Shown: positions 29,635-46,157 of the stretch, piece after piece
Position numbering within the stretch: the first letter of the stretch is position 1
Layout: every line of letters starts with the position of its first letter
Assembly (NCBI RefSeq): GCF_009712425.2
Contig: NZ_VCJR02000003.1
Coordinates: forward strand, 124,001-188,000
Length of the DNA: 64,000 bases
Reading direction: 5' to 3'
From: Aquisalinus luteolus
Lineage (GTDB): Bacteria > Pseudomonadota > Alphaproteobacteria > Caulobacterales > Parvularculaceae
Translations under genes and position numbers: made by a program
Notes under the pieces: generated by a model
The model's database searches: none
The model's input: the letters and a program-made list of their open reading frames with translations, nothing else
What the model was told of the DNA's origin: nothing

Positions 29635-31503
29635 GTGCTGGCGTGGCTGACAGGACGGCGTAGCAAGTCGGCGAAAGCCGAGATCATCTTTGACGGCTCC
29701 CTGCCGGAGATGCCTGCGGAGCCATGCCTGCCGATCTCCGGCCGCACGACGCTCGTCGGCCGGGAGGCTGGTCGCGCCCGTCAGCTGCAGGGGCGAATCT
29801 GGCTGTGCCTGTCGGTCTTTGTCCTGATCTTTTCAGGCCTCGCCCTGCGCCTTGCCAATATCACACTGGTCAGTCCGGAGCCTGAGAAGGTCATGGTCGC
29901 GAGCCGTGCGATTGCCGAGCCGGGCGAGCGCCCGGAGATTACCGACCGCAACGGCGTCTCCCTCGCGCTGAACCGTACCGTCACCGGCCTCGCCATCGAC
30001 ACCAAGATGGTCTGGGACGCGATGGAAACGGCGCAAGGCATCGCGAGCGTCTTCCCGCAATATGATCCCTCTGCGCTCGCCCGCCGTATCGAGGACAAGA
30101 AATACATCATCCTGCGTAACGAGCTGACCGCAGAGGAACAGCGCGCGCTCCTGACCCTCGGCCTGCCGGGCGTGACCTTCCCGGAGACCACCAAGCGCGT
30201 CTATCCGCAAGGCGCGCTCGCCGCACATGCCGCAGGCTATACCATTGCAGGGCGCGGCGGTGTCGCAGGGCTGGAATTTGTTGCCGACGAACATGCGGGT
30301 GAGGGCAAGCTTGCCTCCTCCATCGATGTCCGCGCCCAGCAGATCCTGGAAGAAGAAATCCGTGCCGGGATGGACCGCTTCAAGGTCGACAGCGCTTGGG
30401 GCGTGATCATGAAGGCCAAGACGGGCGAGGTCGTCGCGCTCGCCTCCATGCCGTCCTTCAATCCGAACGAGGTCAATGACTCTCCCGCCGATCACTGGCG
30501 CAATCGCGCGATGCAGGACCGGTATGAACTCGGTTCCGCCTTCAAGGTCATCACGGCGGCCAGCGTTATCGAGGAGGGGATTGCGTCCCCCGAAACGCTC
30601 TATGACGCCCGTAAACCGCTGAAGGTCTATGACCGCACGATCTATGACTTCCACCCGCGCCGGGAGATCATGAGCCTGTCGAAAGTCGTTCAGCACTCAT
30701 CCAATATCGGTATCGCCCGCGCAGCGCTCGACCTTGGCCGCGAGAGGCAGAGGGAATATTTCGCCCAGCTCGGCCTGACCGAAGCGGTGAAGACCGAACT
30801 GCCGGAAAGCCGCGACCCTGACCTGCCACTGCGCTGGGGGCCGGTCGAGACGGCGACAATCTCCTATGGCCACGGCATCGCCGTCACGCCGCTGCAGCTG
30901 ACTGCCGCGATCAGCGCCGTCATCAATGGCGGCATCTATCGCACGCCGACCTTCCTGAAGGTCGAGGACCAGACCGGCGCCAGCCGCGAGGGCCGCCAGG
31001 TCTTCTCCCCCGAAACCTCTGCCAAGATGCGGCTGATCATGCGCCAGGTCATCACCGATGGTTCTGCGTCGAGGGCCGAGGCGCCGGGCTACTACCCCAT
31101 CGGCAAGACGGCGACGGCCGACAAGCCCGGCATTGGCGGCTATCGCGACAACGCCCGCCTCTCGTCTTTCGTCGGGGCGTTCCCCGGCTATGACCCGGAA
31201 TATGTCATCCTCGTCTCCTTCGACGAGCCTCACGGCATCGAGGCAACCTATGGCTATGCGACTGCAGGCTGGGTCGCCGCGCCGGTCTTCGGCAATATCG
31301 TCGCCCGCATGGGGCCGGTGCTGGGCATCGCGCCCGCCCATGACGATCTTGCTTTTGCCCAATTCATGGCGGGTTTGCGCTCTAGCGAGGAAGTCACCCT
31401 TGCCCTGAACGATCAGATTGATGTGAGCGCTACGGCCTCGCTGGAGGTTGGCGAAGAGATGGATGATGTGGCAAGGCTGCTGGCAAAGGAGCTTGGCCCA
31501 TGA
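29635..31503 (+). CDS. ftsI: Septal peptidoglycan transpeptidase FtsI (PBP3), KTA variant
   Basis: 622 residues. A basic cytoplasmic start, a membrane helix (about 58-78), the pedestal domain and a penicillin-binding transpeptidase domain. Catalytic motifs: SxxK as Ser301-Ala-Phe-Lys304, SxN as Ser355-Ser-Asn357, and the third motif as Lys491-Thr-Ala493 (IGKTATADKP) where KTG is usual. The GTG at 29635 follows AAGGGG. FtsI crosslinks septal wall made by FtsW. The stop overlaps murE. Confidence 0.94.
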   Translation: MLAWLTGRRSKSAKAEIIFDGSLPEMPAEPCLPISGRTTLVGREAGRARQLQGRIWLCLSVFVLIFSGLALRLANITLVSPEPEKVMVASRAIAEPGERPEITDRNGVSLALNRTVTGLAIDTKMVWDAMETAQGIASVFPQYDPSALARRIEDKKYIILRNELTAEEQRALLTLGLPGVTFPETTKRVYPQGALAAHAAGYTIAGRGGVAGLEFVADEHAGEGKLASSIDVRAQQILEEEIRAGMDRFKVDSAWGVIMKAKTGEVVALASMPSFNPNEVNDSPADHWRNRAMQDRYELGSAFKVITAASVIEEGIASPETLYDARKPLKVYDRTIYDFHPRREIMSLSKVVQHSSNIGIARAALDLGRERQREYFAQLGLTEAVKTELPESRDPDLPLRWGPVETATISYGHGIAVTPLQLTAAISAVINGGIYRTPTFLKVEDQTGASREGRQVFSPETSAKMRLIMRQVITDGSASRAEAPGYYPIGKTATADKPGIGGYRDNARLSSFVGAFPGYDPEYVILVSFDEPHGIEATYGYATAGWVAAPVFGNIVARMGPVLGIAPAHDDLAFAQFMAGLRSSEEVTLALNDQIDVSATASLEVGEEMDDVARLLAKELGP

Positions 31504-32978
31504 CAACGACACCGATGAAACTCTCCGCCCTGACCGGCCGTGCCGATCTTGGCAAGGACCCTGAAATCACTGGCATGACCGCCGACAGCCGTGCCGTGCA
31601 GCCGGGCTTTCTCTTCGCTGCTCTGCCGGGCACGAAGATGGACGGTGCCGACTTCATTCCGCAGGCGGAGGAGGCGGGCGCCTTCGCCGTGCTCGCCCTG
31701 CCGGGCACCAAGGCCAATGTGCCGGTCATCGAGAGCGACAATCCACGCCTCGCGCTGGCGCAATACGCCGCGAAGCTCCATCCTGGCCAGCCGGAACTGG
31801 TCGCAGGCGTCACCGGCACAAACGGCAAGACATCCATTGCGCGCTTCTGCCAGCAGCTCTGGGGCATGCTCGGTCACAAGGCCGGGTCGCTCGGCACGCT
31901 CGGCGCCTATGCGGCGGGCTATGAATACACGCTGCGCCACACGACGCCGGACCCTGTCGAAATCCATCAGGTCCTGTCGACCATGGCGACGCTCGGCACC
32001 ACCCATCTGGCGATGGAGGTCTCCAGCCACGGCCTGTCGCAATACCGCGCCGACGGGGTGAAATTCTCGCTCGCGGCCTTCACCAACATCACTCAGGACC
32101 ATCTCGATTATCACCCTGATTTCGACGATTACTTCAACGCCAAGAAACGTCTGTTCACCGAGCTTCTGCCGGAAGGCGGCGTGGCGGTCGTCAATGTCGA
32201 TGGTGCCGGGGCAGAGGAAATGGGCCGCGCAATCACCGGGGCAGGGCGTAGGCTCTTCTCCGTCGGGCGCAAGGGGGCTGACATCCGCCTGATCGAGACC
32301 TCGCCTCTGCCGGACGGCACGTCGCTGTCGCTGGAAGCTGGCGGTACGCGCTATGACCTGCACCTGCCGCTGATTGGCTATTTCCAGGCGGAAAACGCGC
32401 TGGTTGCCGCCGGGCTCGTCATCGCGTCCGGTCACGAGGTCGACCAAGTCATGCCGCTGCTGGAAAAACTCGAAGGCGCACCGGGCCGCATGCAGCTGGC
32501 CGACGAGCTGGAGTTTAAAGACGGCAAAGCCGGCGTCTATGTCGACTTCGCCCATACGCCGGATGCGATCGAGACGGCGCTGAAGGCGATCCGCCCCCAT
32601 GCGGAGAACCGCATCATCATTATCATCGGCGCTGGTGGCGACCGCGACAACCGCAAGCGCCCGCTGATGGGCAAGGCCGCTGCCGCCGGTGCCGACAAGG
32701 TTATTGTCACGGATGACAATCCGCGCACGGAAGACCCGGCGGAAATCCGCCGTCAGGTCATGGAAGGTTGCCCGGACGCAGAAGAGATTGGCGGTCGCGA
32801 GGCCGCCATCATGGCGGGCCTGAAAGACCTTCAGGCAGGCGATGTCCTGCTGATCGCAGGCAAGGGGCACGAGTCGGGTCAGACCGTGGGGACGGTCACG
32901 CACCCGTTCAACGACCGCGAGGTCGCGCAAAGGCTGGTGGGACAGCTAAAATCTGCAACCGATCAGGATGGGGCCTGA
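31500..32978 (+). CDS. murE: UDP-MurNAc-L-Ala-D-Glu:meso-DAP ligase MurE
   Basis: 492 residues. ATP loop VTGTNGKTS, the NITQDHLDYHPDFDDYFNAKKRLF segment with the Mg-binding His and the carbamylated-lysine motif, and the DNPRTEDP motif that marks addition of meso-diaminopimelate rather than L-lysine. Cytoplasmic Mur ligase step three. The normal motifs here are a useful contrast to the altered murD three genes on. Starts in ATGA overlap with ftsI. Confidence 0.96.
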   Translation: MTTTPMKLSALTGRADLGKDPEITGMTADSRAVQPGFLFAALPGTKMDGADFIPQAEEAGAFAVLALPGTKANVPVIESDNPRLALAQYAAKLHPGQPELVAGVTGTNGKTSIARFCQQLWGMLGHKAGSLGTLGAYAAGYEYTLRHTTPDPVEIHQVLSTMATLGTTHLAMEVSSHGLSQYRADGVKFSLAAFTNITQDHLDYHPDFDDYFNAKKRLFTELLPEGGVAVVNVDGAGAEEMGRAITGAGRRLFSVGRKGADIRLIETSPLPDGTSLSLEAGGTRYDLHLPLIGYFQAENALVAAGLVIASGHEVDQVMPLLEKLEGAPGRMQLADELEFKDGKAGVYVDFAHTPDAIETALKAIRPHAENRIIIIIGAGGDRDNRKRPLMGKAAAAGADKVIVTDDNPRTEDPAEIRRQVMEGCPDAEEIGGREAAIMAGLKDLQAGDVLLIAGKGHESGQTVGTVTHPFNDREVAQRLVGQLKSATDQDGA

Positions 32979-34455: not shown

Positions 34456-35562
34456 ATGCTTTATCACATCTTCTTCCCCCTCGCAGACGCGATCCCGATC
34501 TTCAACGTCTTCCGTTACCTGACGTTCCGCATGGGCGGCGCGATCATGACCGCGCTGATCATCTGCTTCATCATCGGCCCGTCGCTGATCCGCTGGATGC
34601 GTGCCCGCCAGGGCAAGGGCCAGCCGATCCGCGCCGACGGCCCGCAGACCCATATCGTGGAGAAAGCAGGCACACCGACCATGGGGGGCGTCCTTATCCT
34701 GATCTCCCTGATAGTCTCCGTGCTGCTCTGGGCGCGGCTCGACAACCCCTATGTCTGGGTCGTGCTTGGTGTCACCGCCGCCTATGGCCTGCTCGGTTTC
34801 GTCGATGACTATCTGAAGGTGAAGAAACAGAACACGGCTGGGGTACTCAGCCAGGGCAAGCTGGTCGTCCAGTTCGCGGTCGCGCTGATCGCCGGTTACA
34901 TCTGCATGAAGGTGCTGGGCTCCTCGCCGGAAGTCGACCCTTCGACGGCCAGCTCCGTGCCGCTGCCCTTCTTCAAGGATCTGCTGATCCCGCTCGGCTT
35001 CATGTTCGTGCCGTTCGCCGCCTTCGTTATCGTTGGCGCATCGAACACGGTGAACCTTACCGACGGCCTCGACGGCCTTGCCATCGTGCCCGTGATGATC
35101 GCGTCAGCCAGCTACATGTTCATCGTCTACCTGACCGGTAACGCGATCTATGCGGATTACCTGCAGATCATCTTCGTGCCGGGCGTTGGCGAGCTTGCCA
35201 TCGTTTGCGGCGCTATCATCGGCGCAGGGCTCGGCTTCCTCTGGTTCAACGCCCCGCCTGCGATGATCTTCATGGGCGACACGGGTTCTCTGTCGCTGGG
35301 CGGGGCCATCGGCGCGACGGCGGTCGCGGCCAAGCACGAGATCGTTCTCGCCATCATCGGTGGACTGTTCGTGGTCGAGGGGTTGTCCGTCATGATCCAG
35401 GTTGCCTCGTTCAAGCTGTTCGGCAAGCGGGTCTTCCGCATGGCGCCGATCCACCACCATTTCGAGCAGATGGGCTGGAAGGAGCCGACTATCGTGATCC
35501 GTTTCTGGATCATCGCGGTCATCCTCGCGCTCATTGGCCTGTCCACCCTCAAGCTGCGTTAG
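34456..35562 (+). CDS. mraY: Phospho-MurNAc-pentapeptide transferase MraY
   Basis: 368 residues with ten membrane helices. Landmarks: the GTPTMGG-type motif ([11 protein letters not shown]), FVDDYLKV with the catalytic Asp pair, [10 protein letters not shown], and the cytoplasmic [15 protein letters not shown] loop. It transfers phospho-MurNAc-pentapeptide to undecaprenyl phosphate, giving lipid I. It starts two bases after the murF stop. Confidence 0.97.
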
Positions 35563-35583: not shown

Positions 35584-36996
35584 ATGATTTCGTTGCGTGC
35601 GTATACTGACAAGGCTGTCGGCATCTATGGTGCCGGGTCTGCCGGCCTGTCTGCCCATGCGGCCTTTGCCGCAGCGGGTGCGCACCCGTTCTTCTGGGAC
35701 GAGAACGAGCAGGTGCGCGAGCGCGTCAGCGCTGCCGGTATCAAGTGCACCCCGCCAAAGGACTGGCCGTGGGAAGAGCTCGCCGTCATCGTGCCGGGCT
35801 TCTCGACACGCTCCGGTTTTGTGCGGGCCACCCGCATTCTCGGCCTTGCCGCCGAGCACAAGGTGCCGGTCAAAAGCGATGTCGATCTTTTCGCCGAGGC
35901 GATGGCGGCACGGCCGGAAGCCGAGCGCCCGCGCGTCGTCGGCGTCACCGGCACCCATGGCAAATCCGTCACTGCCGCGCTGATCACCCATGTGCTCAAC
36001 GCTTCCGGTCATGACGCCTGGCTGGGCGGTACGGCGGGCGACAGCGTGCTGAACCTGCCGGAAGGCGGCGCGACGACGACCTATGTGCTGGAGATCCTGC
36101 CGCAGACGCTCGCCTTCACCCGCCAGCTGCGCTGCGATGCCGGGGTCCTCCTGAACCTCACCGCCCTCGATGTGCGCTACTTCAAGACACCGGACAAGGC
36201 GGTGCGTGCTGCGACCCGCATCTTCCGCAACCAGAGAGATGACGACGCCATGGTGATCGGCGTCGACGATGCACTGAGCCAGAAGATCTGCACCGCCATC
36301 ACGGCGAGCTTCAACACCGGAGACAATATCATCGCCGTGTCGGGCGAGGCGACGCTGGGTCTCGGCGTCTTTTCCCTTGATGGCCGCGTCTTCGATGCCC
36401 GCTCCGACAAGACCGCTAGCCTCGGCACCATCACCCGGGCCCCCGGCATTTTCGGCTCCCACTTCAATCAGGCAGCAGCGGCAGCCTACGCCGTCTGCCT
36501 GCATCTCGGCCTGACCGCGCCGCTGATCACCCGTGCCGTCACTTCATGGCCCGGCCTGCCGGGGCGGCTGTTCTGCATGGGCGACCATGAGGAGACCGTC
36601 TTCTTCGACGACGGGGCTTCGAGCTGGCTGCTCTCGACCATCGCCGCGCTCAATGCCGGTGAGGACATCATCTGGATCGGCGGCGGGGAACACCGCCAGC
36701 GCGACTATGCCCGCCTGCGCGAGGCTGGCGATGGCGTGCTCAAAGCCTTTCTCTATGGCGAGGCGGCGCAGCCGATCGCCAAGGCAACCGCCCGCACCTT
36801 CGACAGCGTCATCTGCGCCAGCCCCGAAGAGGCAATCCGTGCGGCGGTGAAAGAAGCCAAGCGCCTTGCCGAGGAAGAAGATATTGCCATGCCCATGGTC
36901 CTGTTCTCGCCCGGCTGCCCGGGTACGGGGCAGGGCGCGAACCAGGCGCTCTTTACCCGGATCGTCCAGTCCCTGATCGAGAGTGACGCCGCATGA
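35584..36996 (+). CDS. murD: Divergent MurD-like Mur ligase in murD position, active-site motifs lost
   Basis: 470 residues, full length, uninterrupted, in the exact murD slot. Overall alignment with MurD is possible end to end (N-terminal Rossmann GIYGAGSAGLSA, ATP loop GTHGKS at 123-128, Glu170, central IFRNQ...VIGVDD). However, the Mg-binding His segment is NLTALDVRYF instead of NxxPDHLDRH, the carbamylated Lys is Ala210 or Thr211, HRxE is GRLF, DSKATN is DGASSW (343-348), and the C-terminal substrate motif SPxxxSxDxFxxFxxRG is missing. Canonical D-Glu ligase activity is doubtful. Overlaps ftsW by four bases. Confidence 0.75.
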   Translation: MISLRAYTDKAVGIYGAGSAGLSAHAAFAAAGAHPFFWDENEQVRERVSAAGIKCTPPKDWPWEELAVIVPGFSTRSGFVRATRILGLAAEHKVPVKSDVDLFAEAMAARPEAERPRVVGVTGTHGKSVTAALITHVLNASGHDAWLGGTAGDSVLNLPEGGATTTYVLEILPQTLAFTRQLRCDAGVLLNLTALDVRYFKTPDKAVRAATRIFRNQRDDDAMVIGVDDALSQKICTAITASFNTGDNIIAVSGEATLGLGVFSLDGRVFDARSDKTASLGTITRAPGIFGSHFNQAAAAAYAVCLHLGLTAPLITRAVTSWPGLPGRLFCMGDHEETVFFDDGASSWLLSTIAALNAGEDIIWIGGGEHRQRDYARLREAGDGVLKAFLYGEAAQPIAKATARTFDSVICASPEEAIRAAVKEAKRLAEEEDIAMPMVLFSPGCPGTGQGANQALFTRIVQSLIESDAA

Positions 36997-38180
36997 ACAC
37001 GCTCACCGCCTATATCTCAGACCTGCGCCTGACCTCGCGCGATTCCATGTCGGCGCTCGGGCGCTGGTGGTGGTCGATCGATCACTGGCTGCTCTATGCG
37101 ACTGGCGCACTGATCCTGATGGGCATCGTCCTGTCCTTTGCGGCGGGGCCTGCCTCTGCCATGCGCATCGGCATCGAGAACACCAATCATTTCATCATCA
37201 AGCACATGATGTTCATCGTCCCCGCCATCGGGTTGATGATCATGGTCTCTTTCTTGACGCCGCTACAGGCGCGCCGGGTCGGTGTCATTGTCTTTGCCGT
37301 GATGCTGGCGATGATCATTGCCGCGCTCCTGTTCGGGCCGACCATCAAGGGCGCCAATCGCTGGCTGCCGCTGGGGCCCATCGGTATCCAGCCATCGGAA
37401 TTCGCCAAGGCGGGCTTCGTCATCGCCGCAGCATGGCTGATGGCCGAAGGCGCGAACGCGAAGAAATTCCCCGGCGGGCTGTTGGCGCTCGGCTGCTATG
37501 CGATGTTTGCAGGGCTGCTCATCGCCCAGCCGGATTACGGCCAGTGGGCGCTCGTCACCGCTGTCTGGGCGATCATGTTCTTCATCGCCGGGTGGAGCTG
37601 GTTCTGGATCATTGCGCTGGGCTGCACCGCCGTCGGTGCGCTCTATATGGGTTATCTCTACGCGCCCCATATCGCCTCGCGCATCGACACCTTCCTCAAT
37701 CCCGCCTCCGGCGACACCTACCAGGTCGACAAGGCGGTCGAAGCGATCCGCAATGGCGGGGCCTTCGGCCATGATTTCGGGCAGGAGCCGGGCGCGGCCG
37801 CCGATGCGGTCAAATACCAGCTGCCGGATTCCCATACGGATTTCATCTTTGCCGTTGCGGGGGAGGAGTTCGGCTTCTTCCTCTGTCTTGTCATCCTCGC
37901 GCTTTACGCGTTCTTCGTCTGCCGCGCCTTTATGCTTGCCGCGCGCAAACAGTCGGTCTTCATCCAGACAGCGGTCTGTGGCCTCGCCGCGACGATCGGC
38001 CTGCAGGCGATCGTGAATATCGGCGTGAACCTGCGCGTCCTGCCTGCCAAGGGCATGACGCTGCCGTTCATCTCCTATGGCGGCTCGTCCATGCTGGCGA
38101 CCGGTCTCGCCATCGGCTTGATCCTCGCGCTGACCCGCAAGCAGCCCGGCCATATGAGTCGCCGGGAAACGCTGGCTTAA
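36993..38180 (+). CDS. ftsW: Septal peptidoglycan glycosyltransferase FtsW
   Basis: 395 residues of the SEDS family with about ten membrane helices. It has the signature ANRWLPLGPIGIQPSEFAK loop, the catalytic-Asp-bearing LIAQPDYGQ region, the large periplasmic loop with DTYQVDKAVEAIRNGG, HTDFIFAVAGEEFGF, and the terminal PAKGMTLPFISYGGSS. FtsW polymerises lipid II at the septum with FtsI. The ATG overlaps the preceding stop. Confidence 0.97.
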   Translation: MNTLTAYISDLRLTSRDSMSALGRWWWSIDHWLLYATGALILMGIVLSFAAGPASAMRIGIENTNHFIIKHMMFIVPAIGLMIMVSFLTPLQARRVGVIVFAVMLAMIIAALLFGPTIKGANRWLPLGPIGIQPSEFAKAGFVIAAAWLMAEGANAKKFPGGLLALGCYAMFAGLLIAQPDYGQWALVTAVWAIMFFIAGWSWFWIIALGCTAVGALYMGYLYAPHIASRIDTFLNPASGDTYQVDKAVEAIRNGGAFGHDFGQEPGAAADAVKYQLPDSHTDFIFAVAGEEFGFFLCLVILALYAFFVCRAFMLAARKQSVFIQTAVCGLAATIGLQAIVNIGVNLRVLPAKGMTLPFISYGGSSMLATGLAIGLILALTRKQPGHMSRRETLA

Positions 38181-44966: not shown

Positions 44967-46157
44967 ATGAAAGCCGTCGTCTTTCACGGTGTCGGCGATA
45001 TCCGCCTCGACACCGTTTCCGATCCAGAGATTTCCGACAGCCGCGATGCGATCGTGCGTATTACCAACAGCGCCATTTGCGGTACCGACCTTCACTTCGT
45101 GCGCGGCACGATGGGCGGGCTGAAGGAAGGCCAGATCCTTGGGCATGAAGCCATCGGCATCATCGAGGAAATCGGCAAGGGCGTGCGCAATTTCAAACCG
45201 GGCGACCGCGTCGTCATCCCCTCGACTGTTTCCTGCGGCGGCTGTTCCTATTGCCGCTCCGGCTATACCGGCCAGTGCGACGAGGCGAACCCCAATGGCA
45301 AGCGTGCCGGTACTGCCTTTTATGGCGGGCCGGAAGCCGCCGGCGGTTTCGACGGCCTGCAGGCGGAATATGCCCGCGTGCCCTATGCCAACACATCTCT
45401 GGTCCGCCTGCCGTCTTCAGTGACCGACGATCAGGCGATCATGCTGTCTGACATCTATCCCACCGGTTATTTCGGCGCGGACATGGCAGAGATCAGCCAG
45501 GGCGACACCGTCGCCGTGTTCGGCTGCGGTCCGGTCGGCCAATTCGCCATCATCAGCGCCTACCAGCTCGGCGCGGGCCGGGTCATCGCGGTGGATGGTC
45601 ATGAAGACCGGCTGGAGCGCGCCCGGTTCCAAGGCGCCGAAACGATCAACTTCAACAAGGAAGATCCGGTCGAGGCGATCGTCGAACTGACAAACGGCAT
45701 CGGCGTCGACCGCGCCATCGATGCCGTAGGTGTCGATGCGGAAGTGCCCAAATCCGGTCCTGCCAAACAGGAACCGCAGCATGACATGGTCGCACAGATC
45801 GTCGACGAGTCCGGCCAGGACGGAAAGCTGTGGAAGCCGGGCGACGGACCGATGATGGCGACCAAATGGGCCGTCGATGCACTGGCCAAGGCCGGTACAT
45901 TGTCGATCATCGGCGTCTATCCGCCCAACGACAATTTCTTCCCCATTGGGCAGGCGATGAACAAGAGCCTGTCGGTCAATATGGGCAACTGCAATCACCG
46001 CAGCTACATCCCGCATCTCATCGAGATGGTCGAGCGCGGCAATGTAGATCCGGCGAAAATCATCACTCAGGAAGAAGAGATCGTCGATGCGATCACGGCC
46101 TATAAACAGTTCGATCAGCGCAAGTCGGGCTGGGTCAAGGTCGAGTTGGAGGTTTGA
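44967..46157 (+). CDS. Zinc-dependent alcohol dehydrogenase (formaldehyde-dehydrogenase-like)
   Basis: 396 residues of the medium-chain dehydrogenase/reductase family. Catalytic Zn ligands in AICGTDLHF (Cys38) and LGHEAIG, a four-Cys structural Zn loop (CGGCSYCRSGYTGQC), and the Rossmann motif VFGCGPVGQFAI. An insertion of about 45 residues after AIDAVGVDAEVP is typical of the FDH_like subgroup containing glutathione-independent formaldehyde dehydrogenases. The substrate is unproven. It sits between ftsA and ftsZ with its own ribosome binding site (AGAGGAG), 95 bases after ftsA. Confidence 0.9.
   Translation: MKAVVFHGVGDIRLDTVSDPEISDSRDAIVRITNSAICGTDLHFVRGTMGGLKEGQILGHEAIGIIEEIGKGVRNFKPGDRVVIPSTVSCGGCSYCRSGYTGQCDEANPNGKRAGTAFYGGPEAAGGFDGLQAEYARVPYANTSLVRLPSSVTDDQAIMLSDIYPTGYFGADMAEISQGDTVAVFGCGPVGQFAIISAYQLGAGRVIAVDGHEDRLERARFQGAETINFNKEDPVEAIVELTNGIGVDRAIDAVGVDAEVPKSGPAKQEPQHDMVAQIVDESGQDGKLWKPGDGPMMATKWAVDALAKAGTLSIIGVYPPNDNFFPIGQAMNKSLSVNMGNCNHRSYIPHLIEMVERGNVDPAKIITQEEEIVDAITAYKQFDQRKSGWVKVELEV

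Follow-up and report, generated by a model that had tools for sequence, protein, structure and literature searches.

In the 64,000-nucleotide stretch of the Aquisalinus luteolus genome analyzed here (contig NZ_VCJR02000003.1, positions 124,001 to 188,000; called the window in the following) the murD position of the division and cell wall (dcw) cluster is occupied by a gene whose product has lost the metal, UDP-N-acetylmuramoyl-L-alanine (UMA) and D-Glu sites of MurD. On another contig the same genome carries a second MurD next to a MurL homologue. From sequence comparisons we consider it fairly probable that this MurD2–MurL pair took over the D-Glu step and that the MurD of the dcw cluster persists under selection as a nucleotide-binding pseudoenzyme with a role as a partner of other proteins.

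Residues lost and retained in the dcw MurD

The reading frame of the gene is real and unbroken, its product is homologous to MurD over the whole length, and it lies in the dcw cluster with mraY on the 5′ side and ftsW on the 3′ side. Against the MurD family TIGR01087 the protein scores 172.9 bits (E 1.2e-50), which is under the curated cut-off of 211.95; MurD is by far its best family, the runner-up being murC at 67 bits. The other ligases of the cluster score over their own cut-offs (murC 527 vs 335, murE 589 vs 476 and murF, TIGR01143, 379 vs 288). Residues are numbered as in the literature on Escherichia coli MurD, with the Met removed. Unless a source is cited, the roles of MurD positions are those which we assume from general knowledge of MurD structures. 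The gene and the positions of interest, all on the + strand and located by alignment, are the following:

35584-36996, +: MurD-derived protein in the dcw slot, probable pseudoenzyme (470 aa, ATG to TGA; open reading frame, homology, tree and substitution rates)
35950-35967, +: retained P-loop GTHGKS (E. coli G111-S116)
36091-36093, +: retained Glu at the E157 position, followed by ILPQT in place of LSSFQ
36160-36183, +: former DHxDRH motif, now TALDVRYF, D182 and H183 lost (also by profile)
36211-36213, +: position of the carbamylated K198, now Ala (also by profile)
36562-36564, +: H301 changed to Gly, the adjoining R302 retained
36607-36627, +: former NDSKATN, now DDGASSW, with D317 kept, N316 changed to D and K319 lost
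36694-36696, +: position of the Glu-binding K348, now Arg
36913-36933, +: former C-terminal ACASxDQFKNFExRG, now GCPGTGQ, the FKNFExRG part being gone

Compared with E. coli MurD the first half of the protein carries the changes N138T, S159L, S160P, Q162T, D182L, H183D, R186Y and K198A, and the second half N268F, N271A, H301G, S318G, K319A, T321S, N322W, K348R and S415G; the Phe422/Arg425 tail is lost as well. Retained are G111, G114, K115 and S116 of the P-loop together with E157, H267, R302 and D317. The Mg2+/carbamyl-lysine center including K319 is incomplete, having E157 only (H183D, K198A, K319A), and on the UMA side S71, N138, S159 and Q162 are all replaced (by G, T, L and T). On the nucleotide side G114, K115, S116, R302 and D317 are all present, with N268 and N271 lost. 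In active MurD the carbamate of K198 stabilizes Mg2+ and R302 makes contact with the phosphate of ADP (PMC4816537), while K319 contacts both UMA and ADP (PMC4652230); a review places D182 and K348 at the Glu site (PMC8788868).

A profile built from nine canonical relatives and E. coli MurD covers residues 1-450 in one match of 337.9 bits, and the posterior confidence of this alignment is high across the motif blocks. The match being continuous and confident, the motif residues have not been displaced to shifted positions. A structure prediction was too poor (predicted local distance difference test score 41) and was not used for fold comparison.

These results agree in most points with the first-pass annotation of the window, which had described a full-length gene in the exact dcw slot and canonical MurC, MurE and MurF beside it, and had named catalytic residues recovered at shifted positions as an observation that would speak against it; no such shift is seen. 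Its statement that the catalytic and substrate motifs are all changed holds for the metal, UMA and D-Glu sites and goes too far for the nucleotide side, which is largely kept.

A MurD2–MurL pair elsewhere in the genome

The second MurD is encoded at C4:110612-111910 and passes the cut-off of TIGR01087 with 231 bits. Directly upstream, on the same strand and with the open reading frames touching, lies a MurL homologue (C4:111939-113264) that matches NF041275 over residues 10-450 of 452 with 284 bits (E 1.6e-84), the Xanthomonadales-specific cut-off being 700. Homology below this cut-off together with the adjacency to MurD2 suggests that the gene encodes MurL. In the second MurD, K115, E157, H183, K198, R302 and D317 are kept, K319 is Leu, and D182E and K348R are present; it is the latter two positions which set the L-Glu specificity of the Xanthomonas MurD2 according to the review, where Parvularcula is already listed among the users of MurD2/MurL (PMC8788868). 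A recent duplication as the origin of the two MurDs is ruled out, as MurD2 forms a separate clade in the tree.

In most Parvularculaceae MurD2s (e.g., that of locus L001, 1462-2832, − strand) K319 is now Leu and the adenine-side motif HNxxNA is lost, both of which canonical MurD keeps. In E. coli MurD, K319T was reported to admit L-Glu (PMC8788868).

The source genome (3.68 Mb, 9 contigs) is complete by marker count. In it we found neither a MurI above the cut-off nor a D-amino-acid aminotransferase (Dat) of comparable score. Outside the window there is a weak Glu-racemase-like match (27.8 bits; G000 C3:230699-231124, L007), which probably belongs to a different protein of the Asp/Glu racemase superfamily. 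The MurD2/MurL option fits because the same genome holds the pair without a convincing MurI or aminotransferase.

Co-variation with D-Glu synthesis genes

For the family-wide comparison we used 62 genomes and counted aminotransferases of at least 200 bits. MurL is present in 20 of the 62. None of these 20 has the aminotransferase vs 38 of the 42 without MurL, and the four remaining MurL-less genomes have a completeness of at most 89%. MurI over the cut-off was found in 0/62; the informative gene for the route is the aminotransferase, not MurI. Motif-complete canonical MurD occurs in the aligned members of genera g2, g6 and g7. The mutual exclusion of MurL and aminotransferase means that the family uses two alternative gene sets, either aminotransferase plus canonical MurD or MurD2 plus MurL. 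A pathway switch to MurD2–MurL has good support.

We could also imagine that the dcw protein is a strongly altered MurD which still adds D-Glu, since a full-length MurD homologue does occupy the slot. However, D182, H183, K319 and K348 are absent from all 17 altered proteins described below, no D-Glu-making gene was found in the window genome, and the set with aminotransferase and intact MurD and the set with MurD2 and MurL replace each other across the family. We give this explanation hardly any credence.

In the fragmented assemblies of two g8 genomes, G056 (C302, L224) and G058 (C542, L225), Dat was found and MurL was not. Their Dat form a distinct subgroup with 43-51% identity to other Dat, and the Dat of G056 is near an open reading frame which, by eye, we take to resemble a D-Glu catabolism gene. 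These exceptions may stem from gaps in the assemblies or from contamination.

A clade of altered MurDs and a graded series

Altered MurDs are found in the dcw slot of 17 genomes from four genera (g1, g4, g8 and g9). They form one clade with a support of 100/100 inside the dcw MurD lineage of the family, and the MurD2s form the separate clade (100/99); the murD of the window is, by its place in the tree, vertically descended from the dcw murD. A MraY tree, in which many inner branches are weak, agrees with a single split of g1/g4/g8/g9 from g2/g5/g6/g7. G111, G114, K115 and D317 are kept in all 17 proteins, R302 and H267 in 15, and a Glu at the E157 position in 13, whereas not one of the 17 retains S71, P72, D182, H183, N268, K319, K348 or R425. 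H301G and N316D are new states common to all 17.

The protein might have become a different ligase, one that still hydrolyzes ATP and joins another acid and amine, the roles of the metal and the lysine being taken by other residues. The intact P-loop, the frequent E157, the retained R302 and D317, the two derived residues fixed across the clade and the strong purifying selection would all suit such an enzyme. Yet almost every member lacks the Mg2+ histidine and the carbamylated lysine, none has K319, the substrate-side residues vary among the genera without converging on one new set, and the four g8 members that have diverged furthest no longer carry E157. We regard a neofunctionalized ligase as unlikely.

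Outside this clade further stages are found. Genome G031 has MurD2–MurL, lacks the usual aminotransferase and keeps a nearly canonical dcw MurD (N113K, S415P); it falls within g6 in the tree and represents an independent switch. G017 combines MurD2–MurL with a partly altered dcw MurD (E157K, D182V, K198M, K319S). In three relatives under the same genus label (G012-G014), which use MurD2–MurL, the slot holds no murD: the gap between mraY and ftsW is only 236 bp in G014, and in G013 an unrelated open reading frame borders ftsW. In the phylum, two MurD matches at 1e-35 were found in 12/397 near-complete genomes including that of the window, and several of these 12 may be split genes to judge from their low best scores.

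Two observations concern single genomes of this series. The gain of MurD2–MurL in G031 (L163, G031:C229) is apparently recent, and the switch has possibly been caught early there. In G012 (L137, G012:C79:900-7200) the former place of murD between mraY and ftsW is taken up by about 5.9 kb of unrelated open reading frames, and such a break in the dcw cluster is unusual.

Selection on the altered gene

The closest named relative of the window murD in a single-protein scan is that of Aquisalinus flavus D11M-2 (Parvularculaceae) with 94% identity. Between the window genome (G000) and A. flavus (G010) the nonsynonymous and synonymous substitution rates are dN 0.034 and dS 0.545, giving a dN/dS of 0.063; in the same pair 14 other dcw genes range from 0.019 to 0.125 and MurD2 has 0.061. 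An independent close pair (G059/G060) gives 0.075. More distant g8 pairs have values of 0.21-0.35, slightly under MurD2 in the three pairs that allowed this comparison, and saturated values of distant pairs were left unused.

It could be argued that the gene is a decaying relic whose frame is held only by the overlap of the murD stop with the ftsW start, frameshifts being polar on ftsW. In many members the ftsW junction is indeed overlapping or close, the gene is absent in G012-G014 and hence losable, and its long-range evolution is faster than that of its neighbors (identity between G000 and G011: 48% for the altered MurD, 84% for mraY and 75% for murC). Frame maintenance alone, however, predicts a dN/dS near 1 and not the values of the two close pairs, which resemble those of neighboring essential genes and therefore speak against decay, and the derived residues have become fixed in all four genera. 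We consider a decaying relic very unlikely and largely refuted by the dN/dS values. An assembly error or pseudogene is ruled out by the low dN/dS and by the unbroken frame in 17 genomes, in one of which a contig end truncates the gene. Loss on the UMA, Glu and metal side, retention on the nucleotide side and newly fixed residues do not look like a pattern of random decay. At the level of sequence the protein thus has both marks of a pseudoenzyme, lost catalytic residues and persisting purifying selection.

The first-pass annotation had offered as its second option that the D-Glu step runs through a MurD2/MurL route, and the adjacent pair, its L-Glu signature and the lack of a detected D-Glu-making gene support this. 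Of the genes that it proposed to look for, a second murD and murL were found, both on C4, and no murI over the cut-off. It had also asked whether relatives have the altered motifs and whether the gene is under purifying selection; both are the case, the former in the clade of 17 marked by H301G and N316D.

Neighboring genes of the cluster

34456-35562, +: mraY, upstream neighbor
36993-38180, +: ftsW, its ATG overlapping the murD stop (ATGA)
31500-32978, +: murE, canonical by profile score
32966-34453, +: murF, canonical by profile score
39414-40844, +: murC, canonical by profile score

Between ftsA and ftsZ there is a gene for a Zn-dependent alcohol-dehydrogenase-like protein of 396 aa (44967-46157); the spacing suggests that this gene is present in A. 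flavus too.

Discussion

We propose that MurD2, acting as an L-Glu ligase, would add the second residue of the stem peptide and that MurL would then invert it to D-Glu, free D-Glu probably not being made. Left without its substrate, the dcw MurD would have lost the metal, UMA and D-Glu sites, and strong purifying selection would keep it as a folded, probably nucleotide-binding protein without ligase activity. Our best guess is that it acts within a cytoplasmic Mur/MurG/MraY–FtsW assembly as a partner with a structural or regulatory task, using the old contacts of MurD. The sequences show the residue losses, the MurD2–MurL pair, its co-variation with D-Glu synthesis genes, the vertical descent and the purifying selection; inactivity as a ligase, nucleotide binding and the partner role are what we infer. 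MurD, MurE and MurF of Thermotoga were reported to bind MurG and MreB (PMC6420597), which provides a plausible reason for keeping a non-catalytic MurD.

Several observations weigh against this proposal. The absence of MurI proves nothing by itself, because MurL-less relatives lack it too. T117 and, on the adenine side, N268 and N271 have largely disappeared from the clade, and nucleotide binding may therefore be weakened. G012-G014 have no murD in the slot, so some backgrounds can do without the protein; and 11 further genomes of alphaproteobacteria that match MurL strongly have MurD2 as their sole MurD over the cut-off, without a recognizable relic in the dcw cluster. The last two points bear equally on a direct helper or regulator of MurD2 or MurL, for instance a heterodimer partner or a feedback sensor of UDP-MurNAc-peptide. 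The restriction of the strongly altered form to genera with MurD2–MurL would agree with such a helper, but MurD2–MurL users without an altered MurD exist, as just described, and the UMA contacts are lost; we think this quite improbable. We return to the nucleotide-binding pseudoenzyme as the preferred explanation. For the more specific claim that after the MurD2–MurL takeover it acts in at least four genera as a non-catalytic, nucleotide-binding wall or division component, selected like the essential dcw genes, we see an even chance.

As cells depend on the chemistry of Mur ligases, roles of these enzymes beyond catalysis, such as holding a Mur complex together, are difficult to test. Evolution seems to have split the two here: the reaction would have passed to MurD2–MurL, and the old MurD is still selected in most lineages and lost in one. 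If this is true, MurD has a function in Mur/divisome assembly that is separable from its chemistry. The family also presents a graded replacement, from intact MurD with aminotransferase, through MurD2–MurL with a nearly intact, a partly altered and a fully altered MurD, to loss. Such a series is relevant to the question of how an essential step comes to be exchanged and to the use of MurD as a drug target. We found no earlier report of such a Mur ligase pseudoenzyme in the open-access literature, most subscription journals being outside this coverage.

Compared with canonical MurD (TIGR01087; g2, g6 and g7 of the same family) the window protein is alike in operon slot, length, continuous profile match and vertical descent, and it differs in the loss of the metal, carbamyl-lysine, UMA and D-Glu residues and in the change of the hinge H301 to Gly. 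In the Thermotoga Mur complex on MurG and MreB the members are active enzymes (PMC6420597), which the window protein probably is not. As in the MurD2–MurL route of Xanthomonas oryzae, the window genome has an adjacent pair with the E/R signature; the parts of the review consulted mention no retained altered dcw MurD (PMC8788868), whereas the window genome keeps the old MurD beside the new pathway.
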